Source: Paracoccaceae bacterium
GTDB lineage: Bacteria > Pseudomonadota > Alphaproteobacteria > Rhodobacterales > Rhodobacteraceae
DNA length: 37,964 nucleotides
Direction: 5' to 3'
NCBI GenBank assembly: GCA_007694945.1
Contig: REER01000074.1
Coordinates: forward strand, 1-37,964
How positions within the stretch are numbered: position 1 is the stretch's first letter; each line of letters opens with the position of its first letter. A program made the position numbers and the translations under genes. Positions 3,832-37,742 of the stretch are shown here, piece after piece. Below the pieces are notes generated by a model. The model worked only from the letters and a program-made list of their open reading frames with translations, searched no databases and was not told the origin of the DNA.

Positions 3832-3839
3832 TTCGGGCC

Positions 3840-4481: not shown

Positions 4482-4524
4482 GGGCCGGTTCCTTTATTCT
4501 TTATGGGTCGTTCTTGGTAGTGGC

Positions 4525-5319: not shown

Positions 5320-5338
5320 GGGTTTTCCTCCTTGAGGG

Positions 5339-7445: not shown

Positions 7446-7446
<1 letters not shown>
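6772..7446 (-). CDS. bchM: Mg-protoporphyrin IX O-methyltransferase BchM
   Basis: Transfers a methyl group from S-adenosylmethionine to the 13-propionate of Mg-protoporphyrin IX, producing the cyclase substrate. The 224-aa protein shows SAM motif I, VLDAGCGTGAASAELAARG (about residues 69-87), then TAIDIS and the later DMLAADLGRFDHVIAMDSLIYY segment. Its start overlaps the last base of the bchL stop (TGATG), and its own stop overlaps the lhaA start (ATGA). Such coupling is typical of the bchH-L-M-lhaA series in Rhodobacter. Confidence 0.96.
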
Positions 7447-11974
<4,528 letters not shown>

Positions 11975-11985
<11 letters not shown>

Positions 11986-13537
11986 AGTGGGCTTTGGCCT
12001 CGTAGAGGGTGTCAACGGAAATCTCGTGAAGGCCTTTCTCTGAGGCAAATTTTTCAGTGTTGCGCCGCGCCTTGCCGCGCACGAAGAAGGGAATCTTCTT
12101 CAGCTCGCGTTCAGCGCAGGTCAGCCAGATCACGTTATCAGCGGAAGGGGGGGCGGCGGGCGGGGGCGCCGAGCCCCCTTCCGCCGCGGCCGCTGGCGCG
12201 ACCGGCGCCCCGAGGTCGCGGATCTGTGCCTTATGGCCGTGATGCGAAGGGCCAGCTTCATCGTGGAATTCGAAATCCTCACGGAACATCGCAAGAAGAT
12301 GCTCTTCGAGACCCATAACCAGCGGATGGACCCAGGTATCGAACAGGACATTCGCGCCCTCAAACCCCATCTGGGGCGAAAAGCGAGCAGGGAAATCCTG
12401 CACATGGACGGGCGCCGAAATAACGGCGCAGGGGATGCCCAGACGCTTGCCAATATGGCGTTCCATCTGGGTGCCGAGGATCATCTCGGGCGCGGCCTCC
12501 TCGATGGCGCGCTCAACCTCGAGATAATCGTCGGTAATCAGAGCGGTGAGGCCGAATTCCTTGGCCAGCGCGCGCAGGGGCCGGGCCTGTTCGCGGTTGT
12601 AGCAACCCATGCCGCAGACCTCGAAGCCCATTTCGTCGCGCGCGACTTTGGCCGCCGCCATGACATGGGTGCCATCGCCGAACAGGAAGACACGCTTGCC
12701 AGTGAGATAGGTAGAATCAACGCTGGCCGCCCACCAGGGCATCCGCAGGCGAGACTCATCCACAGGCAAGGTGCTGCCCGAGAGCGCACGCACTTCCTCG
12801 ATGAAGGCGCGCGTGGCAATGGCACCGATCGGGATGGTTTTTGTGAAGGGCTGGCCGTGGTCGCGCTCCAGCCAGCGCGCTGCCGATTCGGAAGTTTCCG
12901 GGTAGAGCAGCACGTTGAAATGCGCCTGCCCCATGCGCGCGATATCTGAAGGGCTCGCGCCCATTGGCGCCGCGACATTGACTTCGATCCCCATCTCGGA
13001 CAACAGTCCAGTGATCTCCTGCAGATCGTCACGGTGCCGGAAGCCAAGCGCTGTCGGGCCGAGGATGTTGCAGGTGACGCGGGCCGTGCGCTCCATCGGG
13101 CGGGCCAGCGCGCGGCAAAGCTGCAAGAACGCCTCGTCGCAGCCGAAATTCTCCTTTCGCTGGTAGCTCGGCAATTCAAGCGGAATGACTGGCACCGGCA
13201 GACCCATGGTTTCGGCCAGACCGCCGGGGTCGTCCTGGATCAGTTCTGCCGTGCAGGAGGCGGTGACGAGCAGCGCCTCGGGCTTGAAGCGCTCATGCGC
13301 ATCGCGCGCCGATTGCATGAAGAGCCCGGCTGTGTCGGCGCCCAGATCGCGCGCCTGAAATGTGGTGTAGCTGACTGGCGGGCGGTGGTCGCGCCGCTCG
13401 ATCATGGTAAAGAGCAGGTCGGCATAGGTGTCGCCCTGCGGGGCGTGCAGCACCATATGAAGATCGCGCATGCCGGTGGCGACGCGCATCGCGCCGACAT
13501 GGGGCGGGCCTTCATAGGTCCAGACGGCGAGCTTCAT
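11975..13537 (-). CDS. bchB: light-independent protochlorophyllide reductase subunit BchB
   Basis: NifK-like subunit of the BchNB catalytic component that reduces ring D of protochlorophyllide. From the ATG at 13537 ([22 protein letters not shown], with GGAG upstream) it is 520 aa. The conserved catalytic region and cluster-binding N-terminus are present; in this family an aspartate near residue 36 replaces one cysteine ligand of the NB cluster. A low-complexity Ala/Pro-rich linker ([20 protein letters not shown]) joins the core to the C-terminal PCP-reductase domain ([23 protein letters not shown]). The long N-terminal extension open in the same frame was rejected because it overlaps bchN and is unlike BchB. 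The gene ends inside the bchH start region. Confidence 0.96.
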
Positions 13538-13583
13538 GGCAGACTCCGGATATTGAGTTTTTTCGGCAAGAAAATGAGGCGAG

Positions 13584-15361
<1,778 letters not shown>

Positions 15362-15394
15362 GTGGCAGCCCCCAAAAACGCGATTCTTGCCCAA

Positions 15395-22667: not shown

Positions 22668-23849
22668 ATGAGCTTTGATGTCTTTGTCGTGGGCGGTGGC
22701 CCCTCTGGCGCAACTGCTGCCGATGACCTTGCCCGGGCGGGCCGCAAGGTCGCGCTTTTGGACCGGGCTGGTCGTATCAAGCCGTGCGGGGGCGCCATCC
22801 CGCCGCGTCTGATCGCGGATTTCGAGATCCCCGAGGATCAGCTTGTCGCGCATATCACCACAGCGCGCATGATCTCGCCCACGGGTCGCGCGGTCGATAT
22901 TCCCATCGAGAACGGCTTTGTCGGCATGGTGGATCGCGAGCATTTCGACGAATTCCTGCGCAGCCGCGCCGAGAGCCATGGCGCGACCCGCCTGACCGGC
23001 ACGTTTCTGCGCATCGAGCGCGATGCGGAGGGCACCCATGTCGTGTGGCGCGACAAGACGAGCGGAGAAGAGCGCCGCAGCCTAACGAAATTTGTGATCG
23101 GCGCGGATGGCGCGCGCTCGAATGTGGCCCGCGCCGAGGTGCCAGGTGGCGACAAGATCCCCTATGTGATTGCCTATCACGAGATCATCAAATCTCCGCC
23201 GGCCAATGATGTCTACGACCCCGACCGCTGCGATGTGATCTATGATGGCCGCATCTCGCCCGATTTCTATGGCTGGGTGTTCCCGCATGGGAAAAGCTGC
23301 TCGGTCGGCATGGGCACGGAGAAGCCGGAGGCCGATCTGAAGAAGGCCACCGCGGCATTGCGCGAAATGTCAGGGCTGAGCGGCTGCGAAACGATCCGCC
23401 GCGAGGGCGCGCCGATCCCGCTGCATCCGATGGATCGCTGGGACAATGGCCGCGATGTCGTGCTGGCCGGTGATGCTGCGGGGGTGGTTGCTCCGTCTTC
23501 GGGCGAAGGGATTTATTACGCCATGGTGGGTGGTCGCGTAGCAGCAACGGCTGCTCAGGCGGCGCTTGCCTCGGGAAAGGCGAAAGATCTCTCACTGGCG
23601 CGCAAACTCTTCATGCGCGAACACAAGACCGTGTTCCGGGTGTTGCGCCAGATGCAGGATGCTTACTACAAGTCTGACGAACGGCGCGAGCGTTTTGTCA
23701 GCTTATGTCATGACATTGACGTGCAGCGTCTGACCTTCGAGGCCTACATGAACAAGAAACTGGTGGCGGCGCGCCCGCTGGCCCATGTCAAGATTGGCAT
23801 CAAGAACCTGATGCATCTGAGCGGCCTTGTGCGACCGAGTTATACATGA
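22668..23849 (+). CDS. bchP: geranylgeranyl reductase BchP
   Basis: Flavin-dependent reductase that saturates three double bonds of the geranylgeranyl tail to give phytylated bacteriochlorophyll a. The 393-aa protein opens with the FAD-binding motif VVGGGPSGATAADDLARAG (about residues 7-25) and later has GWVFPHGKSCSVGMG and the second FAD segment DVVLAGDAAGVVAPSSGEGIYYA. The ATG lies 3 nt after the preceding stop, and its own stop overlaps idi (ATGA). Confidence 0.96.
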   Translation: MSFDVFVVGGGPSGATAADDLARAGRKVALLDRAGRIKPCGGAIPPRLIADFEIPEDQLVAHITTARMISPTGRAVDIPIENGFVGMVDREHFDEFLRSRAESHGATRLTGTFLRIERDAEGTHVVWRDKTSGEERRSLTKFVIGADGARSNVARAEVPGGDKIPYVIAYHEIIKSPPANDVYDPDRCDVIYDGRISPDFYGWVFPHGKSCSVGMGTEKPEADLKKATAALREMSGLSGCETIRREGAPIPLHPMDRWDNGRDVVLAGDAAGVVAPSSGEGIYYAMVGGRVAATAAQAALASGKAKDLSLARKLFMREHKTVFRVLRQMQDAYYKSDERRERFVSLCHDIDVQRLTFEAYMNKKLVAARPLAHVKIGIKNLMHLSGLVRPSYT

Positions 23850-24403
23850 GCTGGCTGATCCCGGCTTGGGAAGACGGCACGCTCAAACCCGTCGACAAGA
23901 TGGAGGTGCATCGGCGCGGGCTGAAGCACAAGGCGATTTCGGTCTTCGTGACTGAGGGCGACCGTGTGCTAATCCAGCGCCGGGCGTTGGCGAAGTACCA
24001 TACGCCCGGGCTTTGGACGAATACCTGTTGCACGCATCCGCATTGGGGCGAGTCAGATCTGGACTGTGCTACGCGGCGGCTTGAGGAAGAGATGGGCATC
24101 ACGGGCCTGCCACTGACCCATGTGACCGAAATCGATTATCGCGCCGAGGTCGGTAACGGGCTGATCGAACATGAAGTGGTGCAGGTCTTTACAGCGCGTG
24201 CGATGCCCGATCTGGTGGTTTCACCCAACCCTGATGAGGTCGTTGATACCGACTGGATCAACCTGACAGCATTGGCGGCTGTCGTCGAACGCCTCCCCGA
24301 GCGCTTCACCCCTTGGCTGCGAATCTATCTCCGCGATCATGCGCGCACGATTTTCGGCCCGCAGGCTGCGTGGCTCGATCTGCCGATCGCGGCGAACCAG
24401 TAA
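23846..24403 (+). CDS. idi: isopentenyl-diphosphate delta-isomerase, type I
   Basis: Interconverts isopentenyl and dimethylallyl diphosphate, feeding both carotenoid synthesis and the pigment tail. The 185-aa Nudix-fold protein has the catalytic Cys region LWTNTCCTHPHWGES, the Nudix-like glutamate segment ATRRLEEEMGI and YRAEVGNGLIEHEV. It is ATGA-coupled to bchP. It converges on tspO with only 4 nt between stops. In the classical Rhodobacter order the puf-bchZYXC-crtFEDC block would follow here, but it is absent. Confidence 0.95.
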   Translation: MSWLIPAWEDGTLKPVDKMEVHRRGLKHKAISVFVTEGDRVLIQRRALAKYHTPGLWTNTCCTHPHWGESDLDCATRRLEEEMGITGLPLTHVTEIDYRAEVGNGLIEHEVVQVFTARAMPDLVVSPNPDEVVDTDWINLTALAAVVERLPERFTPWLRIYLRDHARTIFGPQAAWLDLPIAANQ

Positions 24404-24407
24404 GATC

Positions 24408-24866
24408 TCAGGCAAATTGCGGGTTGCGCTGCCAGACCGAGAAGTTCAGCGCCCCCGCAATAGTGACCCATAGCAGGTACGGCGCGAACAATGCCCCAGC
24501 GATGGGGTCGAGCGCCCAGAAGCTGATCATCGTAGCGGCGACGAAGACCCAGAGGAAACACAGGATCACCATCGCCGCACGCATCCGCTTGAGTCCGAAA
24601 AATACTGGTGACCAGAGCGTGTTGAAAGCAATCTGTGCGGCCCAGAAGGCAAGTGCCTGCTGCGAGCCTTCGAGCAGTGCGACGCGCATGGCGGCATAGG
24701 ACATCGCGATATAAAGCGTCATCCAGACCAGTGGAAACACGAGGCCCGGCGGTGTCCAGACCGGTTTGTCGAGATCGCGATACCATTTGCCAGGCTCGAA
24801 CATTGACCCGGTCGCCCCAGCAGCCCCGCAGGCGGCGAGAAAGGTCAGAAACAGCATCCAGTCCAT
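24408..24866 (-). CDS. tspO: tryptophan-rich sensory protein TspO (CrtK)
   Basis: A 152-aa outer-membrane-associated five-helix protein of the TspO/MBR family, formerly crtK. It is rich in Trp and aromatic residues (FEPGKWYRDLDKPVWTPPG, AFNTLWSPVFFGLKR). In Rhodobacter it restrains photosynthesis gene expression under oxygen, apparently by influencing tetrapyrrole efflux or levels. AGAGGGAAAG precedes the ATG. It lies after crtB in the same direction, separated by a 115-nt gap with two hairpins, so it may have partly independent expression. Confidence 0.93.
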   Translation of the reverse strand: MDWMLFLTFLAACGAAGATGSMFEPGKWYRDLDKPVWTPPGLVFPLVWMTLYIAMSYAAMRVALLEGSQQALAFWAAQIAFNTLWSPVFFGLKRMRAAMVILCFLWVFVAATMISFWALDPIAGALFAPYLLWVTIAGALNFSVWQRNPQFA

Positions 24867-24981: not shown

Positions 24982-26019
24982 TCAGGCGCTGCGCCGGTCC
25001 ATGATGTGATAGGCATTCCGCGTTTTCAGGTCATGTTCATGCAGTCGCGCGAGCACGTCGATCAGGGCTTCCGAACGGGGCAGTTGCGGGGCGTCTATAG
25101 CGGCCGCTTCCACAAGGAAGGCTGTCTCCGGGCAGGGGCGGGCGTAGAGCGTCGGCATACGCGGGACCAGCAGCGAGGCACCGGCCTGCACTCCGGCAAG
25201 GGCCAGCCAGCCGAGTTTGCGCTTATGCGCGGTGACGGCGCGGCGTGTAACGGAGTCAAAACCCTGGTCACGGATCACCCCCCCGATCCCGTCATAGATG
25301 TGGCGCGCGGCGTAGATCCCTGGACGGCAGGTCGGCGGCAGTGCCGAGATGCCGGGGTCGGCACGCTGATAAAGGCGCGTCGCCTCGCGCAAGAGTCGCT
25401 TGGTCATGTCGCGGATTTCGGGCAGCGGTTGGGGTGCGCGCACAAAGGCGGCCTGGTCGATCCCGGCCTCATCGAACCACTCCAGCGGCAGGTAAATCCG
25501 TCCGCGCCGTGCATCCTCGCCGACATCGCGGGCGATATTGGTCAGTTGCATTGCCAGTCCAAGGTCGCAAGCCCGAGCCAGCCGATCGCGATCGCGCACG
25601 CCCATCAGCACGGACATCATCACGCCCACTACGGCAGCGACGCGTGCCGAATAGGCGCGAACATCCGAGAGTGTGTGTAAGCGGCGCCCCTCTGCATCCC
25701 AGGCGAGCCCCTCTAGCAAAGCGTCAGGGAGTGCGCGGGGAAGGTCATGCGTGTCGATCAGGCGGGTGAAGGCGCGGTCAATCGGTGCCTCCTTGGGGCG
25801 GCCTGCATAGGCGCGGTCGAGCCGGTCCTGCAAATGCAGGACTGCCGCGACCGGGTCACGACCCTCATCAACGGCATCATCCGCGAGGCGGCAAAAGGCA
25901 TAGAGCACAAGTGCCGGGTCGCGCACCTTTGCGGGCAAGAGCTTGGAGGCCGCGTGAAAACTGAGCGAGCCCGTGCGGATCGCGGTCCGGCAGGCTGCCA
26001 TATCCTCCGCGGCGCTCAT
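24982..26019 (-). CDS. crtB: phytoene synthase CrtB
   Basis: Joins two geranylgeranyl diphosphates head to head to give phytoene. The 345-aa all-helical enzyme has the two Asp-rich substrate motifs, FCRLADDAVDEG (about residues 42-53) and LTNIARDVGEDARRGRIYLP. Its ATG overlaps the crtI stop (ATGA), the usual crtIB coupling. CrtE, which supplies geranylgeranyl diphosphate, is not in the window. Confidence 0.96.
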   Translation of the reverse strand: MSAAEDMAACRTAIRTGSLSFHAASKLLPAKVRDPALVLYAFCRLADDAVDEGRDPVAAVLHLQDRLDRAYAGRPKEAPIDRAFTRLIDTHDLPRALPDALLEGLAWDAEGRRLHTLSDVRAYSARVAAVVGVMMSVLMGVRDRDRLARACDLGLAMQLTNIARDVGEDARRGRIYLPLEWFDEAGIDQAAFVRAPQPLPEIRDMTKRLLREATRLYQRADPGISALPPTCRPGIYAARHIYDGIGGVIRDQGFDSVTRRAVTAHKRKLGWLALAGVQAGASLLVPRMPTLYARPCPETAFLVEAAAIDAPQLPRSEALIDVLARLHEHDLKTRNAYHIMDRRSA

Positions 26020-27548
26020 TCTGCAGCCATCCGCAATGGCGCTACCGGCGCTGCATCGGGCACAAGTTGGGCCAGAACTTCCGCGGTGCCAATCACCCCC
26101 GGCACCCCGGCCCCCGGATGCGTCCCCGCCCCGGCGAGGTAAAGCCCGGGCACCTCTTCCGAGACATTATGCGGGCGGAACCATGCGCTCTGAAGTATCC
26201 GCGGCTCGATCGAAAACCCCGCCCCCAGTGGCGAGAGATAGCGGTCGCGGAAGGTTTCCGGCGTGAAGACAAGGCTTTCGGTCACGTGCTCTGACAGACC
26301 GGGAAGCAGCCTCTCCTCCAACATAGCCAGCATTTTCGCTCGGTAGGGCTCAGCCTCTTTGGCCCAGTCCACACCATTGTCATGCCCCAGATGCGGCACG
26401 GGTGAGAGCACGTAGAAGGTGTCACCCCCCTCGGGTGCGACGGATGGATCGGTGACCGAAGGGCGATGCACGTAAAGGCTCATGTCATCGGCCAGATGCC
26501 CGCGAATGAAGATATCCTTGATATGCTCGCGATAGCGCGGTCCGACGACAATCGAGTGATGCCCGACATCGCGCCACATATCGCGCGTGCCCTTGGTGCC
26601 GAAATACCAGACATAAAGCCCCATCGACCAGCGGGTTCGTTTGAGCTTCGCATCGTTCCAGCGCCGTTTGGGCCTGTTACGAAGCAGCCGAGTGTAAGTA
26701 TGGCCCGCATCGGCATTCGAGACAACGATGTCGGCTTGGATCTCCTGACCATCGTGCAACCGTACCCCGGCTGCTCGCCCGTCGCGCACAAGGATTTCAT
26801 CCACTTCAACTCCCATACGCAACAAGCCACCCTGATCCCGGACAACTCCCGCCATGGCCTTGGCAATCGCCTGCACCCCGCCCATCGCGTAATGCACACC
26901 AAAGGCTTTTTCGAGGTGGCTCACGAGCGCATACATCGAGGTCACGCGGAACGGATCGCCCCCGATGAAAAGCGGATGGAAAGAAAAGGCAAAGCGCAAC
27001 CTCTCATCGCGAAACCGCCGCGCGGCATGGGCATAGACCGAGCGATCGGCGCGATACCACGCGAACTTCGGCAAGACCTTGATAAGCTCCCAAAGCTGGT
27101 TCATCGGACGGCGGCCAAGATCTTCATATCCAAACCAGTAGCGCTTCTCGGCATCGGCCAGGAATTTGCGGTATCCGTCCAGATCATTGGGCGAGAGCCG
27201 CGTGATTTCGGCCTCCATCTCGGCCTCACCATCACGCATGGTGAAATGCGAGCCATCCGGCCAGCGAATCTCGTAGAAGGGCTCCATCGGCTTCAAGGTC
27301 ACATCGTGGTCGAAATCGCGCCCGCAAGCCGCCCAGAGGTCGCGCAACCCTTGCGGCACTGTCACGATGGTCGGACCCAAGTCGAACCGGTGGCCGCCTT
27401 GCGTGATCGAAGACCCTCGCCCGCCAGGGAGGTCGAGACGGTCCAGAACCGTCACTTGATAGCCCTTGGCGCCAAGCCGCATGGCCGAAGCCAGCCCGCC
27501 AAGCCCCGCGCCAATGACAATCGCCCGCGTCGGTGCAGAATCACTCAT
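26016..27548 (-). CDS. crtI: phytoene desaturase CrtI
   Basis: FAD-dependent desaturase that converts phytoene to neurosporene or lycopene; the number of steps cannot be read from the sequence, but the presence of crtA suggests the neurosporene/spheroidene branch. The 510-aa protein starts MSDSAPTRAIVIGAGLGGLA, a dinucleotide-binding motif, followed by DLPGGRGSSITQGGHRFDLGPT. The C-terminal FAD/amine-oxidase signature is LYLAGAGTHPGAGVPGVIG. It is divergent from crtA; the 132-nt gap between them holds two PpsR boxes. Confidence 0.96.
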   Translation of the reverse strand: MSDSAPTRAIVIGAGLGGLASAMRLGAKGYQVTVLDRLDLPGGRGSSITQGGHRFDLGPTIVTVPQGLRDLWAACGRDFDHDVTLKPMEPFYEIRWPDGSHFTMRDGEAEMEAEITRLSPNDLDGYRKFLADAEKRYWFGYEDLGRRPMNQLWELIKVLPKFAWYRADRSVYAHAARRFRDERLRFAFSFHPLFIGGDPFRVTSMYALVSHLEKAFGVHYAMGGVQAIAKAMAGVVRDQGGLLRMGVEVDEILVRDGRAAGVRLHDGQEIQADIVVSNADAGHTYTRLLRNRPKRRWNDAKLKRTRWSMGLYVWYFGTKGTRDMWRDVGHHSIVVGPRYREHIKDIFIRGHLADDMSLYVHRPSVTDPSVAPEGGDTFYVLSPVPHLGHDNGVDWAKEAEPYRAKMLAMLEERLLPGLSEHVTESLVFTPETFRDRYLSPLGAGFSIEPRILQSAWFRPHNVSEEVPGLYLAGAGTHPGAGVPGVIGTAEVLAQLVPDAAPVAPLRMAAE

Positions 27549-27647: not shown

Positions 27648-27680
27648 ATCTGAGTTGACACTTGGAGGTTGGAATCGCCT

Positions 27681-28385
27681 ATGCAAACGGTCTCGCTCAG
27701 CCTGTTCCGCTTCGATCGTGCGCTCGCGCGGCTCTGGGTGCTGGGCCAGATGGGTGCCGCACGTTTTGCACTTCCGCGCGTCGAGGGGTTGCAATTCTGG
27801 AAGCTCTGTGGGTCAGGCACTGGCGAAGGCTTTACCCCGCGCCCGAACTGGAGCACCTGGGCTATTCTCGCGGTCTGGAGCGATCAAACGGCCGCGCGCG
27901 CAGGTCTGGAGCGACCACCATTCGCGCGTTGGCGCGCAAAGGCCGATGAAAGCGCCACCTTCTTTCTCGAACCCTTCTCCGCGCGCGGCCATTGGTCCGG
28001 CGCGCGCCCCTTCAGTCCCGAAGGCCAGAGCGACGGTCCGGTTGCCGCAATGACGCGGGCCACTGTCAAGCCCTCGCGCGCGCTGCGCTTCTGGGGGCGT
28101 GTCCCGGATATCTCGGCCAAGGTGGGCGCAGACCCCAATGTGCTGTTCAAGATCGGCATTGGTGAGGTGCCACTGCTGCATCAGGTCACCTTCTCGATCT
28201 GGCCCGACGCCGAAAGCATGTCCGCCTTTGCCCGCCGTGGCCCCCATGCTGAAGCCATCCGCGCCGTGCGCGAGGAAGGCTGGTTCAACGAAGAACTTTA
28301 CGCCCGCTTTCGCCTTGCCGGAGTAACGGGCACTTGGCAGGGGCGTAACCCTCTACCAAAATTGGAAAAACAGGAGGCCGCATGA
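27681..28385 (+). CDS. crtA: spheroidene monooxygenase CrtA
   Basis: Introduces the keto group at C-2, turning spheroidene into spheroidenone (and related 2-keto carotenoids) when oxygen is available. From the ATG at 27681 (MQTVSLSLFRFDRALARLW) the protein is 234 aa and carries the family segments FWKLCGSGTGEGFTPRPNW and KIGIGEVPLLHQVTFSIWPD. GGAGG lies 12 nt upstream; a TTG at 27669 was rejected because it falls at the ribosome site. Its stop overlaps bchI (ATGA). The substrate-making enzymes CrtC, CrtD and CrtF are not in this window. Confidence 0.94.
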   Translation: MQTVSLSLFRFDRALARLWVLGQMGAARFALPRVEGLQFWKLCGSGTGEGFTPRPNWSTWAILAVWSDQTAARAGLERPPFARWRAKADESATFFLEPFSARGHWSGARPFSPEGQSDGPVAAMTRATVKPSRALRFWGRVPDISAKVGADPNVLFKIGIGEVPLLHQVTFSIWPDAESMSAFARRGPHAEAIRAVREEGWFNEELYARFRLAGVTGTWQGRNPLPKLEKQEAA

Positions 28386-29383
28386 CGCCTTTCCCGTTCG
28401 CTGCCATTGTCGGGCAGGATGAGATGAAGACCGCGATGGTGCTCACAGCCATCGATCCAAAAATCGGCGGTGTGCTGGTCTTCGGTGACCGCGGCACTGG
28501 CAAATCGACCGCCGTGCGCGCCCTTGCGGCCCTGCTGCCGCCGATCAAAGCGGTCAAGGGCTGTCCTTGCAACTCGGCCCACGTGGACGATTGCCCTGAC
28601 TGGGCTGATGTGACCGACACCAAGATCGTTTCGCGGCCAACGCCGGTGGTCGATCTGCCCCTCGGCGTAACCGAGGACCGCGTGACTGGTGCGCTTGACA
28701 TCGAGCGCGCGCTGACGCGCGGTGAAAAGGCCTTCGAGGCGGGGCTGCTTGCGCGGGCCAATCGCGGGTATCTCTATATTGACGAGGTCAATCTGCTTGA
28801 GGACCACATCGTCGACTTGCTGCTTGACGTGGCGCAGACTGGCGAGAATGTCGTCGAGCGCGAAGGCATGTCCATTCGCCACAAGGCGCGCTTTGTGCTG
28901 GTCGGTTCGGGTAACCCCGAAGAAGGCGAACTCCGGCCACAACTTCTGGACCGCTTCGGCCTTTCGGTTGAGGTCAAAAGCCCCAGCGACATCGACACGC
29001 GCGTGGAGGTCATCCGGCGCCGCGATGCCTATGAGACCGATCACGATGGTTTCATGGCCGAATGGGAACCCCAGGATGCCGCGCTGCGCGACCGCATCCT
29101 GACAGCACGCACAGCCCTTGGTGATGTGGGCACATCGAATATCGCGCTGCATGATTGCGCCTCGGTCTGCCTCGCGCTCGGCTCGGACGGGCTGCGGGGC
29201 GAGTTGACGCTGCTGCGCACAGCCCGCGCGCTGGCCGCCTATGAGGGCGCAGGCGAAATCACACGCGACCATATTCGTGCCGCTGCCCCAATGGCGCTGC
29301 GCCATCGCCTCCGCCGCGACCCGCTCGACGAGGCTGGCTCCAGCGCCCGCGTCGCTCGCCAGCTCGCTGAAGTGCTGCCATGA
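28382..29383 (+). CDS. bchI: magnesium chelatase ATPase subunit I, BchI
   Basis: AAA+ motor subunit that forms a ring with BchD and drives Mg2+ insertion by BchH. The 333-aa protein has Walker A GDRGTGKST (35-43), Walker B LYIDEVNLL (131-139) and the GSGNPEEGELRPQLLDRFG sensor/arginine-finger region. It starts directly at FPFAAIVGQDEMK, so the N-terminal tail is shorter than in Rhodobacter capsulatus BchI. It is ATGA-coupled to crtA, so carotenoid oxidation and Mg-chelatase share a transcript. A small hairpin spans its stop codon. Confidence 0.97.
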   Translation: MTPFPFAAIVGQDEMKTAMVLTAIDPKIGGVLVFGDRGTGKSTAVRALAALLPPIKAVKGCPCNSAHVDDCPDWADVTDTKIVSRPTPVVDLPLGVTEDRVTGALDIERALTRGEKAFEAGLLARANRGYLYIDEVNLLEDHIVDLLLDVAQTGENVVEREGMSIRHKARFVLVGSGNPEEGELRPQLLDRFGLSVEVKSPSDIDTRVEVIRRRDAYETDHDGFMAEWEPQDAALRDRILTARTALGDVGTSNIALHDCASVCLALGSDGLRGELTLLRTARALAAYEGAGEITRDHIRAAAPMALRHRLRRDPLDEAGSSARVARQLAEVLP

Positions 29384-29399
29384 AGCCACACAGCTTCAT
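29380..29399 (+). other. 7-bp hairpin spanning the bchI stop codon
   Basis: ATGAAGC (29380-29386) and GCTTCAT (29393-29399) pair with a 6-nt loop. The bchI TGA is in the left arm. No T-run follows. It could tune ribosome release or transcript stability between bchI and bchD, which is inference. Confidence 0.45.
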
Positions 29400-29418
29400 C
29401 TTGCCCCAAATACTCGAG
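29394..29418. repeat. short dispersed motif, copy 2 (bchI-bchD junction)
   Basis: CTTCATCTTG, four variable bases, AAATACT and a CG-rich end, matching 8354-8380. Its end contributes the GAGG that looks like the bchD ribosome-binding site. Confidence 0.5.
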
Positions 29419-29425
29419 GCTGCGA

Positions 29426-31165
29426 GTGTCCCGCGGTCTGCTCAAGATGACTCCGTTTGACGACACCAGCGGCCTGCCCGGCCGTCCCCCGCCCCCAACT
29501 GACCCTTGGGCACAGGTCGGGCTGGCGCTCACCCTCTATGCCATCGAACCTGCCGGTCTGCGTGGTCTCTGGTTGCGCGCTCGCGCGGGTCCAGTACGCG
29601 ACCGGGTGCTGGCAGCGCTTGCAGCACTCACGCCGCGCAAATTGCACCCATTCGTCAGCGACGAAGCGCTCTTCGGCGGCATGGACCTGAGTGCGACACT
29701 TGCCACTGGCGAGATGCAGCGCCACGCCGGGCTGCTGGAGCAGCCCGGGATTCTGGCGCTCAGCATGGCTGAACGCTGTCCGTCAGGGCTTGCGGTTCGG
29801 CTCGGGCAAGCCCTCGACCAGCGTGCTGAGTTGAGCCTTGTGGCGCTAGACGAAGCCGCCGAAGAGGGTGAGGGCTTGCCTCCGGCGCTTGCGGACCGAC
29901 TGGGGCTGTTTCTCGAGCTTGACGGTTTTGCAATGGGCGAGACCTCCGAGATCACCTTGCCACAAGGACTTATCGAGACAGCGCGGGCCCGATTGAACCA
30001 TATACGCAAAGGCGAGGCGCAAATGCGCCTCGCCCGCGTCGCGCGGGATCTGGGTATAGAGAGCCTGCGCGCGCCCATGTTGGCATTGGCTTGCGCGCGC
30101 GCACATGCGGCATGGCGGGGGGCAGATGCTATAGAAGAGAATGATCTGGAACTGGCCGTTGCCCTGACACTGGCCCATCGCGCTTCGCAGTTTCCGGAAT
30201 CAGCGCCACCTCCCGAGGAGTCGCCGCCCGATACGCCACCCGATGCGCAGGACCCGGAGCAGGATCACGACCAGAGCCCGCTTGATCTGCCGGAAGAGAT
30301 GCTGATTGACGCGGCCCGGTCGGCTTTGCCGCCCGGGCTGCTGGCGCAACTTCAGGCCGCGAGTGTTGCGCGCGGTGCACCGAGTCAGTCGGGTGCCGGG
30401 GCCAAACGCAAGTCACTGCGGCGCGGGCGACCGATGCCTGCGCGGGCAGGCAAACCCGGCGCGGGCGCGCGGGTCGATGTGATCGCCACGCTGCGGCAGG
30501 CTGCACCGTGGCAGAAGGTGCGGCGCCGGATGATGCCGGAACGGGCTGATGGACGGCTTCTGCTCATGCCTGCCGATATCCGTATCAAGCGATATCAGGA
30601 CCAGACTGACCGCGTTCTGATCTTCGTTGTCGATGCGTCCGGCTCGAGCGCCCTGGCGCGGTTGGGCGAGGCCAAGGGCGCAGTCGAACTCATGCTCGCC
30701 GAGGCCTATTCGTGCCGTGATCATGTCGCTCTTGTCACCTTTCGCGGAACACAGGCCGATCTGGTCTTGCCGCCCTCGCGCTCACTCGTGCAGACCAAGC
30801 GCCGCCTCGCCGGGCTGCCGGGTGGTGGCGCCACACCGCTCGCAAGTGCCCTGCAAGTGGCCTTGGCCGCAGCCGAACAGGCTCGCGGGCATGGCATGAC
30901 GCCCACACTCGCGCTACTGACAGACGGCCGTGGCAATATCGCATTGGATGGCAGCGCCAACCGTGTGCAGGCTGCTGACGAGGCTGCTCAACTGGCCCGC
31001 GCAATTGCCGGACGGGGAATCCCCTCGCTCGTGATCGATACCAGCCTGCGCCCGAAACCGGCCTTGACCGAACTGGCGGCACAGATGCATGCCACTCTCA
31101 TCGCGCTCCCGCGCGCCGATGCGCGCACGCTCTCGGCGACGCTGGGCGCTGCCCTGAAAGGGTAA
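29426..31165 (+). CDS. bchD: magnesium chelatase subunit D, BchD
   Basis: Scaffold subunit linking the BchI ring to BchH. The 579-aa protein has a degenerate N-terminal AAA+ domain without a recognisable Walker A, a Pro/Asp/Glu-rich linker at about residues 256-290, a basic segment (about 326-345) and a C-terminal von Willebrand A domain with the metal-site motif DASGSS (403-408) and LLTDGRGN. I use the GTG at 29426 because GAGG lies 6 nt upstream; an ATG at 29447 (MTPFDD) lacks such a site. It is 42 nt after bchI and 3 nt before bchO. Confidence 0.95.
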   Translation: MSRGLLKMTPFDDTSGLPGRPPPPTDPWAQVGLALTLYAIEPAGLRGLWLRARAGPVRDRVLAALAALTPRKLHPFVSDEALFGGMDLSATLATGEMQRHAGLLEQPGILALSMAERCPSGLAVRLGQALDQRAELSLVALDEAAEEGEGLPPALADRLGLFLELDGFAMGETSEITLPQGLIETARARLNHIRKGEAQMRLARVARDLGIESLRAPMLALACARAHAAWRGADAIEENDLELAVALTLAHRASQFPESAPPPEESPPDTPPDAQDPEQDHDQSPLDLPEEMLIDAARSALPPGLLAQLQAASVARGAPSQSGAGAKRKSLRRGRPMPARAGKPGAGARVDVIATLRQAAPWQKVRRRMMPERADGRLLLMPADIRIKRYQDQTDRVLIFVVDASGSSALARLGEAKGAVELMLAEAYSCRDHVALVTFRGTQADLVLPPSRSLVQTKRRLAGLPGGGATPLASALQVALAAAEQARGHGMTPTLALLTDGRGNIALDGSANRVQAADEAAQLARAIAGRGIPSLVIDTSLRPKPALTELAAQMHATLIALPRADARTLSATLGAALKG

Positions 31166-31168
31166 GCC

Positions 31169-32065
31169 ATGAGTGAGCTGCCCTCGGACTGGCCACTGCG
31201 CGAACACTCCCGGATCATCCGCTGCCGTCCCCACGAATGGCATGTACAAGTTGTGGGTGAAGGGCCGGATGTGTTGCTTCTGCACGGGGCCGGGGCATCG
31301 GCGCACAGTTTTCACCGTCTGATGTCGCATCTGCCCGGCCATCGCCTGATCGCACCCGACCTGCCTGGCCAGGGCTTTACCCGTGCAGGCGGAATGCCGC
31401 GTCTTGGGCTTGATGAGATGGCCGATGACCTGACCGTGCTTTGCACCGATCAGGGCTGGCGCCCGATGGCGATTGTCGGCCATTCTGCGGGAGGGGCGAT
31501 TGCGTTGCGGATGGCCGAGATCATGCCGCATGGGCCGCATGCCGTGATCGGTATCAACGCAGCTCTCGGCCCATTCGACGGCTTCGCAGGCTGGCTGTTT
31601 CCGAAACTCGCCCGCGCAATGGCCTCGAGCCCTTTTGCTGCTGCTGTGGTCACGCGTCTGTCGTCGAACCGCAAGCAGGTGGAACGGCTACTCATCGGCA
31701 TGGGCTCGCAGATCGACCAAGGCGGGATCGATGCCTACCATCGACTGGTCAGTCGCACGGCACATATCGAGGGCACACTGGGCATGATGGCGCAATGGCA
31801 ACTCGAACCTTTACTGGAGCGTCTGCCGCAGATTGCTGTGCCCGCGCTGCTGATCGGAGCAACGCGCGACCGTGCCGTGCCGCCTGTTGTCTCGCTGCAA
31901 GCGTCGCGTGCTTTGCCGCGCGGCGAATATGCGGAGCTAGCGGATTTCGGGCATCTGGTACATGAAGAAGCACCGGGCGAGATAGCAGCACTGATACTGC
32001 CGTTTCTCGAGGCCAATCAGGCGGCAGTCAGCCTGCTGCCAGACAGACGACAGCAGCGGAACTGA
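31169..32065 (+). CDS. bchO: alpha/beta hydrolase BchO
   Basis: A 298-aa alpha/beta-fold hydrolase that always accompanies bchI-bchD in purple bacterial clusters. It was proposed to act around Mg-chelatase, but its substrate is not established. The oxyanion/His-Gly motif LLHGAGASAHSF, nucleophile elbow GHSAGG (Ser106), an acid candidate in GATRDRAVPP and a His in ADFGHLVHEEAPGE form a complete apparent triad. It is the last PGC gene; after it a 93-nt gap leads to the convergent regulator gene. A 7-bp stem with one G-U pair directly after the stop lacks a T-run. Confidence 0.93.
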   Translation: MSELPSDWPLREHSRIIRCRPHEWHVQVVGEGPDVLLLHGAGASAHSFHRLMSHLPGHRLIAPDLPGQGFTRAGGMPRLGLDEMADDLTVLCTDQGWRPMAIVGHSAGGAIALRMAEIMPHGPHAVIGINAALGPFDGFAGWLFPKLARAMASSPFAAAVVTRLSSNRKQVERLLIGMGSQIDQGGIDAYHRLVSRTAHIEGTLGMMAQWQLEPLLERLPQIAVPALLIGATRDRAVPPVVSLQASRALPRGEYAELADFGHLVHEEAPGEIAALILPFLEANQAAVSLLPDRRQQRN

Positions 32066-32158
32066 GGTTTCGCAGCATCGAAGCCGCGCCCGGTCAGGGT
32101 TTCCAAAACGGCCCTTCGCCTGCGCTGCATGCCCGTGCGGTATAGGCGGGGTATTGGC

Positions 32159-32623
32159 TCAGGCGAGCCGAAAATTCTGCTCGACCACAGCTTCCATCGA
32201 GACATGGCTCGATGTGTTGCTGACATGGGGCAGGACCGATATCTTTTCGGCCATGATGCGGCGGTAATCGGCCATATCGCGCGCGCGCACTTTCATCAGG
32301 TAATCACAACGCCCGGCAATGAGATAGCATTCCTCGATTTCGGGAATCGCCCGGACTGCGGCGTTGAACTGTTGGAGCGCCTGTTCGCGCGTGTCGATCA
32401 GATTGACCTCGACATAGGTTACATGGGTCAGGCCCAATTTCAGCGGCGAGAGAATAGCGCGGTAGCCAGTGATCAGGCCGATTTCTTCGAGGTGCTTGAT
32501 GCGCAGCGCGACCGGGGTTTTTGACAGACCGACGCGGCGCGCCAGTTCGGCGATGGGCAGGCGCGCGTTTTCGGTCAATTCTGCGAGGATCTTGCGATCA
32601 AGTGCGTCCAGCTTGGCATGCAT
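32159..32623 (-). CDS. putR: Lrp/AsnC-family regulator, probable proline-responsive PutR
   Basis: A 154-aa regulator with an N-terminal winged helix-turn-helix (LDRKILAELTENARLPIAELARRVGLSKTPVALRIKHLEEIGLI) and a C-terminal RAM effector domain (THVTYVEVNLIDTREQALQQF...). It is divergent from putA across 109 nt. In alphaproteobacteria such as Rhodobacter capsulatus an Lrp-like protein in this position activates putA in response to proline and represses itself. The name is therefore inferred from context, while the family call is secure. GAGG lies 8 nt before the ATG. Confidence 0.85.
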   Translation of the reverse strand: MHAKLDALDRKILAELTENARLPIAELARRVGLSKTPVALRIKHLEEIGLITGYRAILSPLKLGLTHVTYVEVNLIDTREQALQQFNAAVRAIPEIEECYLIAGRCDYLMKVRARDMADYRRIMAEKISVLPHVSNTSSHVSMEAVVEQNFRLA

Positions 32624-32732: not shown

Positions 32733-35700
32733 ATGTCTGCTGTCAACCCGACATCGCTCGAGAGCCTGTTCACCACCGAGGCCAAATTCGCCGATGAGGC
32801 CGACCTGCTTGAGCGGCTGGTCGCGCAAACCGGTCTGGCTCCCGCGACCCGCGCCGCGATGAGTGAGCGCGCCGCCGATCTGGTTCGCCGCATTCGCGCT
32901 GACTCGCAGCCCAGCCTGATGGAGCATTTCCTTGCAGAATACGGGCTTTCCACGCGCGAGGGGATCGCGCTGATGTGCCTGGCCGAGGCCATGCTGCGCG
33001 TGCCTGACCGCATGACCATAGACGCGCTGATTGAGGACAAGATCGCGCCCTCGGACTGGGGGCGGCATCTGGGCGCGGCCTCGTCCTCTTTGGTCAATGC
33101 CTCGACCTGGGCCTTGATGTTGACCGGCAAGGTGCTGGAGGAAGACCATGTCGGGGTCGCGGGCACACTGCGCCGCGCAGTCAAGCGACTGGGTGAGCCA
33201 GTGATCCGCACGGCAGTCGGTCGCGCCATGCGCGAGATGGGACGCCAGTTCGTACTGGGGCAGACCATCGAGGCAGCACTGTCGAATGCGCGCACACTGG
33301 AAGCGCAGGGTTACACTTACAGCTATGACATGCTGGGCGAAGCGGCGATGACCTCTGCCGACGCCGAGCGCTATCGGCAGGCCTATGCACAGGCTATCGA
33401 TGCAATTGCGGGCTCTTGCAAAGCGGCGAGCGTGGCCGAGAATCCCGGAATTTCGATCAAGCTCTCGGCGCTGCACCCACGGTACGAGGTGGCGCAGGAA
33501 GATCGCATCATGGCCGACCTTGTGCCGGTGGTGCAGACGCTCGCGCGGCAGGCCGCGCGCGCTGGAATGGGGCTGAATATCGACGCAGAGGAACAGGATC
33601 GTCTGGTGCTGTCGCTGCAGGTGATTGAGGCGGTGCTGGCCGATCCGGCGCTGGAAGGCTGGGACGGGTTCGGCGTTGTGGTGCAGGCCTATGGCAAGCG
33701 CGCGGGGCAGGTGATCGACTGGCTGCACGAACTGGCCACGCGGCTGGATCGGCGGATCATGGTGCGACTGGTCAAAGGTGCCTATTGGGACACCGAGATG
33801 AAGCACGCGCAGGTCGAGGGCTACCCTGATTTCCCGCTCCTCACCTCCAAACAGGCCACTGATGTGAGCTTCATCGCCCATGCCAGCAAACTGATCGGCT
33901 ATTCCGACCGAATCTATCCGCAATTTGCCACGCATAACGCGCATACTGTGGCGGCCATCCTCGAGATGGCGGGCGATGCGCAGTTTGAGTTCCAGCGTCT
34001 GCATGGCATGGGCGAGCGGTTGCATGATATCGTACTGCGCGAAACGCGCGGGCGCTGCCGGATTTATGCGCCTGTAGGCGCACATCGCGACCTGCTGGCC
34101 TATCTGGTGCGGCGGCTCCTGGAGAATGGTGCGAATAGCAGTTTCGTCCATCAGATCGTGGATGAGGCGGTGACCCCGGAAGAGATTGCCCGCGATCCAT
34201 TTGAAAACCTCTCGGAGGCCCGCGCTCCGCGCGGGCTTGTCGCGCCAGAGGCAATCTTCGGTGAGGGCAGACGCAATGCAAAGGGTTTCGACCTGACGGA
34301 TGCCGAGAGCCTCGCCCGCATTCGGGTCGAGCGCGAGGTTGCGCTCTCCGATGTCGAGCCTTTGACTGTCACGCCCCCAACTGGCAGCCAGCAGGACGTG
34401 ATCAACCCGACCACGGGGCAGAGTATCGCGCAGGTGCTGATGGCCGATGCGCAGACGGCACATCGCGCCGTTGCCGATGCGCTGATCTGGGACGCTCCGC
34501 CCCGCGAGCGGGCAGAGGTCCTGCGCCGCGCGGCCGATCTATACGAGGCCCATAGCGGGCCGATCTTCGGTATACTCGCGCGCGAGGGCGGCAAGGCCCT
34601 GCCCGATTCGGTGGCGGAATTGCGCGAGGCGGTGGACTTCCTTCGCTACTACGCGTTGCAGGGCGAGGACAGCGAACGCGACCCGCGCGGTATCATCGCC
34701 GCGATCAGCCCGTGGAACTTTCCACTGGCGATTTTCACCGGCCAGATCACTGCAGCGCTGATGGCCGGAAACGCCGTCATCGCGAAGCCGGCAGAGGCAA
34801 CTTCGCTGATCGCGGCGTATGCCACGCGCCTGCTGCACGAGGCGGGGGTGCCGAAAACGGCGCTGCAACTGCTGACCGGCGAGGGCGGGGTGGTCGGCGC
34901 GGCGCTTTCCTCGGACAGTGAGATGGCGGGTGTGGTCTTCACGGGCTCGACCGCGACCGCGCAGCGCATCGCGCGCAGCATGGCAGACCATCTGCGTCCG
35001 GGTGCGCCGCTGATTGCCGAAACCGGCGGGCTGAATGCGATGATCGTCGATTCCACCGCCCTGCCGGAACAGGCAGTGCGAGATATAATCAACTCCGCGT
35101 TTCGTTCGGCGGGGCAACGCTGCTCGGCGCTGCGGTGTCTCTACATTCAGGAAGACGTGGCGGAATCCTTCATCGAGATGATCAAAGGCGCGATGGATGC
35201 GCTGCGACTCGGCGACCCGCGCGAGCTGTCAACCGATGTCGGCCCTGTGATCGATCCGCGTGCGCAGAAAGACATCCTCGACTATATCTCCGCGCATCGC
35301 GATCGGATCCTGCATCAGGTGGATGCACCGGAAGAAGGGTATTTCGTGCCGCCGACAATGCTGCGTGTCTGCGGTATTGCCGATCTGGAGCGCGAGGTCT
35401 TCGGGCCTGTGCTGCATGTCGCGACCTACCGGGCCGAGCAGATGGACCAGGTCATTGCCGATATCAACGCGCGCGGATACGGGCTGACCTTCGGGCTGCA
35501 CACACGGATCGACTCGCGCGTGCAGGAGGTGGCCGAGGCGGTGCATGTCGGCAATATCTACGTCAATCGCAACCAGATCGGTGCCGTGGTGGGTAGCCAG
35601 CCTTTTGGTGGCGAGGGGCTGTCGGGCACTGGCCCAAAGGCGGGTGGGCCGCATTATCTGCCGCGTTTTTTCGCGCCGAAATCGCCGGATGCCGAGGCCA

Positions 35701-36152
35701 GAGAATGGCAGGGTGCTGCCGAAGGCGCGCGGCTTCGACGCGCGTTCGGCGACCCGCAAGCTGCGAAACTCTCGGAGACGATCATGCCCGGCCCAACAGG
35801 TGAGCTGAACCGCCTCGCGCTCTATCGCAGACCACCGGTCCTCTGCCTGGGACCGGGTGCCGAGGCGGCGAAAGCGCAGGTGGCGGCGGTCGTGGCTCTC
35901 GGTGGGCACGCAATCCCGGTCGACGGTACGCTTGCTTCCGAGGCTCTGACAGGGCTGGAGGGCCTGTCAGCCGCACTCTGGTGGGGTGATGCGGAAACCG
36001 GGCGCGCTTATGCGCAGGCACTCGCCGCACGCGACGGCGCCATCATCCCGCTGCTGACATCACGGCCCGACATCGCTCATCTTGTGCATGAACGCCATCT
36101 CTGTGTCGATACCACGGCAGCCGGAGGAAACGCAGCATTGCTTGCAGGCTGA
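32733..36152 (+). CDS. putA: bifunctional proline dehydrogenase / delta-1-pyrroline-5-carboxylate dehydrogenase PutA
   Basis: Oxidises proline to glutamate in two steps with FAD and NAD+. The 1139-aa protein has a helical N-terminal region, the proline dehydrogenase barrel (about residues 200-470, with VRLVKGAYWDTEMK, YPQFATHNAHT and YAPVGAHRDLLAYLVRRLLENG), then an aldehyde dehydrogenase domain with ISPWNFPLAIFTGQ, FTGSTATA, catalytic glutamate in LIAETGGLNA and catalytic Cys797 in GQRCSALR. There is no N-terminal ribbon-helix-helix domain, so it is not itself a repressor; control is expected from the divergent Lrp-type gene. AAGGAGG lies 5 nt before the ATG. The C-terminal 100 or so residues are more variable. 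Confidence 0.97.
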   Translation: MSAVNPTSLESLFTTEAKFADEADLLERLVAQTGLAPATRAAMSERAADLVRRIRADSQPSLMEHFLAEYGLSTREGIALMCLAEAMLRVPDRMTIDALIEDKIAPSDWGRHLGAASSSLVNASTWALMLTGKVLEEDHVGVAGTLRRAVKRLGEPVIRTAVGRAMREMGRQFVLGQTIEAALSNARTLEAQGYTYSYDMLGEAAMTSADAERYRQAYAQAIDAIAGSCKAASVAENPGISIKLSALHPRYEVAQEDRIMADLVPVVQTLARQAARAGMGLNIDAEEQDRLVLSLQVIEAVLADPALEGWDGFGVVVQAYGKRAGQVIDWLHELATRLDRRIMVRLVKGAYWDTEMKHAQVEGYPDFPLLTSKQATDVSFIAHASKLIGYSDRIYPQFATHNAHTVAAILEMAGDAQFEFQRLHGMGERLHDIVLRETRGRCRIYAPVGAHRDLLAYLVRRLLENGANSSFVHQIVDEAVTPEEIARDPFENLSEARAPRGLVAPEAIFGEGRRNAKGFDLTDAESLARIRVEREVALSDVEPLTVTPPTGSQQDVINPTTGQSIAQVLMADAQTAHRAVADALIWDAPPRERAEVLRRAADLYEAHSGPIFGILAREGGKALPDSVAELREAVDFLRYYALQGEDSERDPRGIIAAISPWNFPLAIFTGQITAALMAGNAVIAKPAEATSLIAAYATRLLHEAGVPKTALQLLTGEGGVVGAALSSDSEMAGVVFTGSTATAQRIARSMADHLRPGAPLIAETGGLNAMIVDSTALPEQAVRDIINSAFRSAGQRCSALRCLYIQEDVAESFIEMIKGAMDALRLGDPRELSTDVGPVIDPRAQKDILDYISAHRDRILHQVDAPEEGYFVPPTMLRVCGIADLEREVFGPVLHVATYRAEQMDQVIADINARGYGLTFGLHTRIDSRVQEVAEAVHVGNIYVNRNQIGAVVGSQPFGGEGLSGTGPKAGGPHYLPRFFAPKSPDAEAREWQGAAEGARLRRAFGDPQAAKLSETIMPGPTGELNRLALYRRPPVLCLGPGAEAAKAQVAAVVALGGHAIPVDGTLASEALTGLEGLSAALWWGDAETGRAYAQALAARDGAIIPLLTSRPDIAHLVHERHLCVDTTAAGGNAALLAG

Positions 36153-36254
36153 CGGGCGACGGGGCCTTGCTTGGTGGATGCTTGAAACCCTGTAGGAAAA
36201 TGCGCAAGCTGGCGGCAAAGAAGCGAGACGCGGAACGCAGCAGGGGAGGGGCTG

Positions 36255-37742
36255 ATGGGCTACATTCTGGCACTTGACCAGGGCACGACGTCAAGCCGTG
36301 GGATCGTGTTTGACGCGGGTATGACGATCAGGTCCGTCGCGCAGGAAGAGTTCCCGCAACATTATCCCCAATCGGGCTGGGTCGAGCATGACCCAATGGA
36401 TCTATGGTCCACGACTGCCTCCACAGCCCGCGCCGCAATAGAGAAGGCGGGTCTCTCGGCACGCGAGATTGCGGCCATCGGCATTACCAACCAACGTGAG
36501 ACGACGCTGGTCTGGGATCGCAGGACCGGAAAGGCCATTCACCCCGCAATTGTCTGGCAGGACCGCAGGACGGCAGATTTCTGCGCCACGTTACGCGCGG
36601 ACGGGCAGGAGGCGATGATCACGGCCCGCACAGGGCTGTTGGCGGACCCCTATTTCTCATCCACCAAACTGAAATTCATTCTCGATACAGTGGATGGCGC
36701 GCGTGAGCGGGCGCGCAAAGGTGAGTTGGCCTTCGGCACGGTCGATACCTGGCTTATCTGGAATCTGACTGGCGGCAAGGTTTTTGCCACTGATGCCACC
36801 AATGCCGCGCGCACCATGCTCTACGACATCCACAAGGGCCGCTGGAGCCAGACCATATGCGATCTGTTCGACATTCCGCGCGAGATGCTGCCTGAAGTGC
36901 GCGATTGCGCCGCCGATTTCGGAACAACGCGTGCGGACCTCTTCGGTCACGAAATCCCCATTCTCGGGGTGGCGGGCGACCAGCAGGCCGCGACCATCGG
37001 GCAGGCCTGTTTCAGGCCCGGAATGCTGAAATCTACCTATGGCACAGGCTGTTTTGCAGTGCTGAACACGGGGGAGACGCCCGTTGCCTCAACGAACAAG
37101 CTGCTGACCACGATCGCCTATCAACTCGACGGTAAACCCACCTATGCGCTGGAAGGCTCGATCTTCATCGCGGGCGCCGTGGTGCAATGGCTGCGCGATG
37201 GGCTCAAGGTGATCCGCGCCGCTCCAGAAACGCAAGCGCTCGCAGAGCAGGCCGACTCTTCGCAGGACCTGATCCTCGTGCCGGCCTTCGTCGGCCTTGG
37301 TGCGCCCTATTGGAAGCCCCAAGCGCGCGGCGCAGTGTTTGGCCTGACGCGCAACTCCGGCCCGGCGGAGTTTGCCCGCGCGGCGCTGGAATCGGTGGGA
37401 TACCAGACTCGCGACCTGCTGGAAGCGATGCAGGCCGACTGGGCGCGGGAGGGTGCGCAGCCCAGTTTGCGTGTCGATGGGGGCATGGCCGCGAGTGATT
37501 ACGCGATGCAATTTCTCTCCGATATCATCGGGGCACCGGTAGACCGCCCCGAGGTTCTGGAGACCACAGCGCTTGGGGCCGCATGGCTGGCCGGTCAGCA
37601 CGCGGGGGTCTGGCCCGAAATGTCGGAATTCGCCAAGGTATGGGCTGTCGAGCGGCAATTCACCGCCAGCATGGATGCCGCTGCCCGCGACGCTCGCTAC
37701 GCGCGCTGGAAACGTTCAGTGAATGCGGTGCTGGAGGTTTGA
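36255..37742 (+). CDS. glpK: glycerol kinase GlpK
   Basis: Phosphorylates glycerol to glycerol-3-phosphate; a cytosolic FGGY-family kinase. The 495-aa length is standard. Visible are the N-terminal phosphate-binding loop [16 protein letters not shown], the catalytic-region segment [24 protein letters not shown] and the C-terminal signature [30 protein letters not shown] precedes the ATG. It is 102 nt after putA with no glp transporter or regulator beside it, so it may be expressed alone. It has no known link to photosynthesis and marks the flank. Confidence 0.97.

Follow-up and report, generated by a model that had tools for sequence, protein, structure and literature searches.

A photosynthesis gene cluster split at bchO/crtC in a Rhodobacteraceae genome and the repeated opening of this joint within the genus

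Results and Discussion

Gene content of the window

The DNA analysed here (the window) is the entire contig C145, 37,964 bases long, of genome G000, a draft assembly with 145 contigs, 3.18 Mb and a completeness score of 95%. Its gene order is hemA-puhE-acsF-puh-lhaA-bchMLHBNF, ppaA-ppsR-bchEJG-orf428-bchP-idi, a reversed tspO-crtB-crtI, crtA-bchIDO, a putR-like regulator, putA and glpK, with the following features:

1..15394, minus strand: hemA-puhE-acsF-puhC-puhB-puhA-lhaA-bchMLHBNF half of the photosynthesis gene cluster (PGC), from gene calls; hemA is cut by the contig end
15689..22664, plus strand: ppaA-ppsR-bchE-bchJ-bchG-orf428; ppsR, bchE, bchJ and bchG over the NCBIfam cut-off
22668..23849, plus strand: bchP (TIGR02023, 550 bits against a cut-off of 343)
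23846..24403, plus strand: idi (NF002995, 136.3 bits against a cut-off of 127)
24404..24407, no strand: idi/tspO inversion junction; 4 nt separating the stop codons
24408..24866, minus strand: tspO, one end of the segment inverted relative to outgroups (NF047825, 238 bits against a cut-off of 180)
24982..27548, minus strand: crtB and crtI (NF045921, 511 bits; TIGR02734, 654 bits)
27669..32065, plus strand: crtA-bchI-bchD-bchO, opposite end of the same segment, over the NCBIfam cut-off
32066..32158, no strand: actual split point, bchO/putR here and bchO/crtC in joined relatives, with a remnant element
32159..32623, minus strand: putR-like regulator of the Lrp type (gene call)
32733..37742, plus strand: putA and glpK, which genome G032 carries beyond the puf block (contig C61, 28.5-34.3 kb)

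Within 1..15394 the NCBIfam cut-offs were exceeded by acsF, puhA, bchM, bchL, bchH, bchB, bchN and bchF, and further along the window by bchP, idi, tspO, crtB, crtI, crtA, bchI, bchD and bchO. The names hemA, puhE, puhB, puhC and lhaA are putative, given from sequence and gene order, as are those of ppaA and orf428 (sequence and order) and of the putR-like regulator (sequence and its position beside putA). A close relative of this regulator adjoins putA in G032, G004 and G024. As stated in a preliminary description of this DNA, the block of bchC, bchX, bchY, bchZ, puf, crtC, crtD, crtE and crtF is absent from the contig, none of these genes being among the 30 open reading frames scanned.

The idi/tspO joint and the gene order of relatives

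The preliminary description had located the gap in the cluster between idi and tspO, taking this as the usual place of the missing block and pointing to the 4-nt spacing. Positions 24401-24410 indeed read taa-gatc-tca, so that idi and tspO are convergent and meet end to end with only gatc between their stop codons. We compared 37 genomes of the same genus (Roseinatronobacter/Roseibaca/Natronohydrobacter), in which tspO is found next to idi in 26 of 30 idi loci (own locus included), genomes with a one-piece cluster among them; the exceptions are G023, where the contig stops at idi, G031, which is without puf, G008 with an unrelated gene next, and the unreadable G020. Because this adjacency recurs so widely, an assembly join at 24404-24407, which had been named as a possible refutation, is very unlikely. 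The spacing is not remarkable either, as the stop-to-stop distance ranges from -13 to 100 nt and equals 4 nt in 4 of the 26 readable same-genus loci, own included.

A profile scan for BchO gave 83 named relatives, the best 80 of which were retained and read with one reference protein set. Among these 80, crtC/tspO was found in 30 loci and bchO/idi in 26, including Pseudotabrizicola, Gemmobacter, Tabrizicola and Rhodobacter kunshanensis, and the outgroup order is crtC/tspO-crtBI-crtA-bchIDO/idi-bchP. The classical content from idi to tspO is therefore bchODI-crtA-crtIB and not the block assumed previously. The joint idi/tspO was found in 19 of the same best 80 loci, all with at least 66% BchO identity to the window, and bchO/crtC in 17, namely 16 from this group of at least 66% identity and one from Aureimonas (44%). 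Both joints are the norm of the genus because the tspO...bchO segment is inverted there: as this comparison shows, one inversion of tspO-crtBI-crtA-bchIDO before the genus arose turned crtC/tspO and bchO/idi into idi/tspO and bchO/crtC, and the idi/tspO junction thus predates the genus. The window itself has idi/tspO and bchO/putR, and not the crtC/tspO and bchO/idi of the classical Rhodobacter-type order.

One could still imagine that idi and tspO, which are adjacent and intact, formerly flanked the block and that it was removed from this place, but this is scarcely credible: in none of the best 80 of the 83 loci does the block lie between them (10-kb reach), and the same joint is present in relatives with a one-piece cluster. 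The site of the split is bchO/crtC and not idi/tspO.

An unrelated gene follows idi in G008 and a different one follows tspO in G023 (L026 2099-3526; L153 9732-11308). In these sister genomes the idi/tspO joint is probably broken too, and the cluster there may therefore be in three pieces. G031 retains idi without tspO or crtB alongside.

The second part of the cluster in the same genome

A cleanly split cluster with its second part elsewhere in the genome had been favoured over a loss, and the whole-genome search suggested at that time bore this out: pufLM, bchXYZ, bchC and crtCDEF were all located outside the window contig, on contigs C131, C69 and C81, in the order metH-crtC-crtD-crtE-crtF-bchCXYZ-pufQBALMX-dxs. 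Whole-genome searches with Photo_RC and BchZ gave matches over the cut-off only on contigs other than C145: C69 has bchZ, pufL and most of pufM, C81 the end of pufM. C69 reads bchZ-pufQ-pufB-pufA-pufL-pufM' and C81 'pufM-pufX-dxs, where pufQ, pufX and dxs are presumed from sequence and order; of these three the family scan covered the pufQ frame, for which it gave no match. With a 5.2-kb DNA query from G032 we found crtC-crtD-crtE-crtF-bchC, continuing into bchX and bchY, on C131. This query was used for crtC because PF07143, tried as a marker, matches a different protein elsewhere in the genome. The NCBIfam cut-offs were exceeded by bchY, bchX, bchC, crtD, bchZ, pufL, the C69 part of pufM, pufB and pufA, whereas crtC on C131 falls short of its cut-off of 400 with 395.3, probably owing to a late start of its gene call; crtE and crtF gave only matches below the cut-off to related families and were named by similarity to relatives. 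A CrtC-domain (PF07143) protein outside the cluster was seen in 31 of the 37 genomes, including G018, G031 and G033 (loci L156-L185).

The end of C131 and C69 as well as C69 and C81, between which pufM is divided, share exact 55-nt overlaps and, when aligned to a single G004 contig, follow one another in this order; the second half therefore forms one path of ~50 kb. No end overlap was found from C145 to C131 or C81, the only contigs compared. C131 is a 43-kb contig carrying crtC-bchY plus metH, transketolase and aldolase genes; no replication genes were noticed in a non-systematic reading of its gene calls, and a plasmid location of a PGC part is not supported. In G036 a single 2.63-Mb contig holds both PGC parts, with 594 kb separating them. 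The small gene after dxs is tandemly duplicated in G000 and G004 (L005 = C81 2640-2935, 2953-3223; L117 of G004 3758-4715), and this duplication probably ended the G000 contig.

Both parts are present with open genes, and the PGC is thus complete as far as tested and split; puf and bchXYZ are found on contigs other than the window, and bchO and crtC each have other neighbours than in a single bch/crt/puf/puh cluster. A loss of the reaction-centre and chlorophyllide reductase genes, which their absence from the window might suggest, was rejected and is practically out of the question, since these genes are present elsewhere in the genome. Somewhat more room, although still very little, is left for a split that is an artefact of assembly or binning: G000 with its 145 contigs and G004 with ~270 are drafts, but both new joints, bchO/putR and metH2/crtC, are each present in these two separate bins with bchO-putR spacers that are similar and not identical, and bchO/crtC is also open in assemblies assigned to Roseibaca ekhonensis, R. 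domitiana and Roseibaca sp. Y0-43. For draft genomes of phototrophs with "missing" puf genes this means that a whole-genome search is needed before a loss is claimed.

Opening of bchO/crtC within the genus

In the window the split lies at 32,066, 7.7 kb beyond idi/tspO, and bchO is followed by putR-putA-glpK. Over the cut-off, bchO was found in 30 of the 37 same-genus genomes and is followed by crtC in 16 of them (G001, G003, G006, G007, G010, G011, G012, G013, G014, G017, G020, G021, G022, G026, G028 and G032). The contigs of G024 and G027 end at bchO, hence both were left unscored for this joint (in G024 they end 27 nt past bchO and 7 nt past putR). The joint is open in 12 of the 28 scorable genomes, namely G000 and G004 (putR), G015, G019, G025, G029, G034 and G036 (common set), G016, G002, G023 and G030, the last being readable after bchO for 1.5 kb only. 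In seven genomes pufL and bchO are on the same contig, 10.6-10.8 kb apart.

A tree of 40 taxa was reconstructed under LG+G4 with 1000 ultrafast bootstraps from a concatenation (3540 columns) of 11 proteins encoded in the bchG-bchO part. It contains a Roseibaca clade (100) and groups G000 with G004 (100), followed by G024 (100) and the joined G032 (99). Joined genomes also group with G016 (G001 and G013; 98) and with G002 (G011; 100). The partners of G023 are G008 (90) and G026 (95), the latter joined, and the first two lineages to branch are joined. Read on this tree, of which several nodes are weak (38-64) and in which G002 has a contamination score of 8%, bchO/crtC opened independently at least five times, G030 being left out. 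The neighbours of G023 fit a local inversion better than a removal. We suggest that the repeated opening reflects the nature of this joint: two convergent genes meet there end to end, outside the superoperons, and a break would cost little.

G018, G031 and G033, all with a completeness score of 100%, have neither a match to pufLM nor bchO over the cut-off, and a loss of phototrophy is likely in these three genomes.

The route of the split in this lineage

In G032, the closest joined relative, the order is bchO, crtC to puf, dxs, an exonuclease-like gene, a ligase-like gene, tkt-gap-fba-rpe ... metH1-metH2 and putR-putA-glpK, as read from contigs C46 and C61, of which the former ends and the latter begins within bchC. 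For G032, G000 and G004 the names of genes outside the cluster are putative, except where a family match is given; tkt, fba and metH2 of G000 are over the NCBIfam cut-off. G000 and G004 both have bchO-putR-putA-glpK and, separately, metH1-metH2/crtC...puf-dxs. In the lineage of G000 and its near relative G004 the cluster was opened at bchO/crtC, with bchO coming to lie beside putR-putA-glpK, crtC beside the metH end, and crtDC-crtEF-bchCXYZ-puf-dxs being left intact elsewhere. C131 of G000 carries, ~19 kb upstream of metH1, a tkt-gap-fba-rpe run with the same orientation. The next gene after the ligase-like one of G004 is not tkt but a Rid-like gene (RidA; below the cut-off).

Starting from the G032 order bchO-[crtC...ligase]-[tkt...metH2]-putR, the whole segment could have been excised as a circle, which would leave bchO/putR behind and create metH2/crtC; opening this circle again at ligase/tkt would give the order [tkt...metH2]-[crtC...dxs] seen today. 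We infer this circle excision with permuted reinsertion from gene order, and some of its tests failed. It assumes that G032 retains the older order, which is supported because bchO/crtC is widespread. In the gene calls at bchO/putR, metH2/crtC and the G032 joints, where few genes were family-searched, we noticed no integrase or transposase.

Two candidates were rejected. RidA adjoins murQ in 0 of 30 loci (own included, 1.5-kb flanks), which speaks against murQ/RidA as the reinsertion target; the murQ search gave 37 matches in 35 genomes, 30 of them given as loci. In other genomes murQ is only 64-78% identical to the query, and neither G004 nor G024 has a match to it, so this part of C131 probably represents local content. 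G016 had been considered as a second case of the same geometry, but none of the 14 loci read in 13 other genomes has a TRAP gene beside the cation-efflux gene, and G016 therefore remains an independent opening.

A dispersed hairpin element at 3' ends

Through cross-matches of the 5.2-kb G032 DNA query we noticed an element of the form AGCGCCCGCTC...CCCACCCACCC...GCGGGCGCT, with copies at the following positions:

Window, 32066-32158 (remnant)
L118, 19262-19350
L120, 13303-13394
L217, about 8470
L265, 1446-1538

Each of the 37 genomes has between 0 and 14 exact copies of its core and none has the reversed control pattern, and 22 of 26 aligned copies lie within 100 nt after a same-strand stop codon. 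The hairpin has a nearly invariant CCCACCCACCC loop and a mostly invariant stem, in which two inner pairs co-vary (A-U in 13 and G-C in 11 copies; G-C in 16, C-G in 7 and U-G in 2). Cells with changes on both sides numbered 20 compared to 7.3 in shuffles, a value that none of 500 shuffles reached; co-varying pairs (311/500) and pair types (499/500) were not more numerous than in the shuffles. A comparison of 7 element-bearing loci with Rfam 15 gave no match overlapping the element, the matches at E up to 1 being SAM_alpha (L264) and Hrs1 below the gathering score (L257), both outside of it. The element is possibly a terminator or a 3'-UTR RNA motif of the genus.

In the 62 kb of G032 that were examined, a loose pattern finds three copies only, all in one orientation, at bchO/crtC, ligase/tkt and metH2/putR, and these are exactly the three breakpoints which separate G032 from G000. 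Given the first site, the chance of hitting the two others among 51 gene junctions is 1 in 1225, an after-the-fact figure, as the 62 kb were picked because the breakpoints lie there. The bchO/putR spacer of the window reaches a score of 34 with the element core, compared to a maximum of 29 in 500 shuffles, and of 45 with the full consensus, a value attained in 1 of 1000 shuffles; between its right part and the G032 metH2/putR spacer the score is 48 (highest of 1000 shuffles, 37). A remnant of the element thus lies in this spacer. The match of the window spacer to the G032 bchO/crtC spacer is at chance level (132/1000). At the reopened ends the element was not detected, as shuffles scored as high in 381/500 cases for G000 X/tkt and in 56/500 for ligase/RidA of G004. 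For metH2/crtC no significant match was obtained with the element consensus (155/1000 in G000, 331/1000 in G004) or with the G032 metH2/putR spacer (343/1000), and the match with the G032 bchO/crtC spacer is weak (31/1000).

Recombination between direct copies of the element, as they are found at the three G032 sites, may have caused the event in G000 and G004, and we give this about even odds. The loose pattern has no match in the opened genomes G002, G016, G019, G023, G025, G029 and G036 (G015, G034 and G030 left out) and is present at bchO/crtC in 5 of 11 joined genomes (G001, G003, G006, G013 and G032), therefore it cannot be the general cause of the openings, for which the odds are low. 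An equally balanced case can be made for bchO/crtC opening only because a break is harmless where two 3' ends converge outside of both superoperons, crtEF-bchCXYZ-puf and bchFNBHLM-puh; ordinary inversions and translocations would then suffice and the hairpin would be a mere terminator. The terminator-like position of most copies, the seven opened genomes without a copy at the break and G023, which resembles a local inversion whose left end is the same, all fit such a harmless break, as does the uninterrupted crtEF-bchCXYZ-puf-dxs in the loci read, many of whose contigs end inside it. Against it stand the coincidence of three same-strand copies with exactly three G032 breakpoints and the remnant at the window junction. 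Rather unlikely in our view is the more far-reaching proposal that the element, which is not in Rfam 15, acts as a recombination substrate by which the crt-bch-puf superoperon is lifted out as a circle and re-enters elsewhere, making it a module of soda-lake Rhodobacteraceae that relocates repeatedly, with bchO/crtC as its fixed left border. Taken as a whole we are quite confident in reading the window as one half of a two-piece PGC that arose by an old inversion and the opening of bchO/crtC, with the circle as its putative route and the element as a candidate participant.

Relation to known photosynthesis gene clusters

In two surveys (Zheng 2011, PMC3176799; Brinkmann 2018, PMC6052148), Rhodobacterales PGCs have the same gene sets and the same blocks bchFNBHLM-lhaA-puh, crtF-bchCXYZ-puf and bchIDO as found here; in contrast to them, tspO...bchO is inverted and the cluster is open at bchO/crtC. 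"bchOP" appears as a conserved region in Zheng (PMC3176799), whereas in the window idi and the inverted segment separate bchP from bchO by 7.3 kb. Section 12 of Brinkmann (PMC6052148) calls the PGC order of Rhodobacteraceae conserved with little reshuffling of superoperons, and according to the text of that paper its Table S4 covers 44 Rhodobacteraceae clusters including the Rhodobacter-Rhodobaca group. Clusters in two or more pieces are likewise described for other aerobic anoxygenic phototrophs, such as Ph. sulfatitolerans, Ac. multivorum, Loktanella vestfoldensis SKA53 and Methylorubrum extorquens, in a review (PMC12654162). Split PGCs as such are therefore already known, and of interest here is that, unlike in the cases given there, the same joint opens repeatedly within one genus and the exchange in this lineage can be read joint by joint. 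A partial literature search gave no published account of the bchO/crtC gene order in this genus, and an earlier description is possible. The PGC of Roseibaca (R. ekhonensis, R. domitiana and Roseibaca sp. Y0-43) shares the same inversion, the same opened joint and an intact crtDC-EF-bchCXYZ-puf-dxs elsewhere, but its neighbours differ on both sides and the tree suggests a separate event.

With at least five independent openings of one joint in one genus, it becomes testable what holds the cluster together, and a comparison of sister species could show where it breaks without loss of function.

The putR of G000, G004, G032 and G024 (window 32159-36152; G032 C61 28.5-32.5 kb) is 91-100% identical to that of the window, compared to 53-56% in the 32 other genomes with a match, each genome having one match; this distribution points to a likely replacement or transfer of putR at the base of the subclade. 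In G036 the other putR-putA type lies just past hemA, at the opposite end of the cluster (L221 5593-13373), an arrangement also suggested for G019, G025 and G029 by the positions there.
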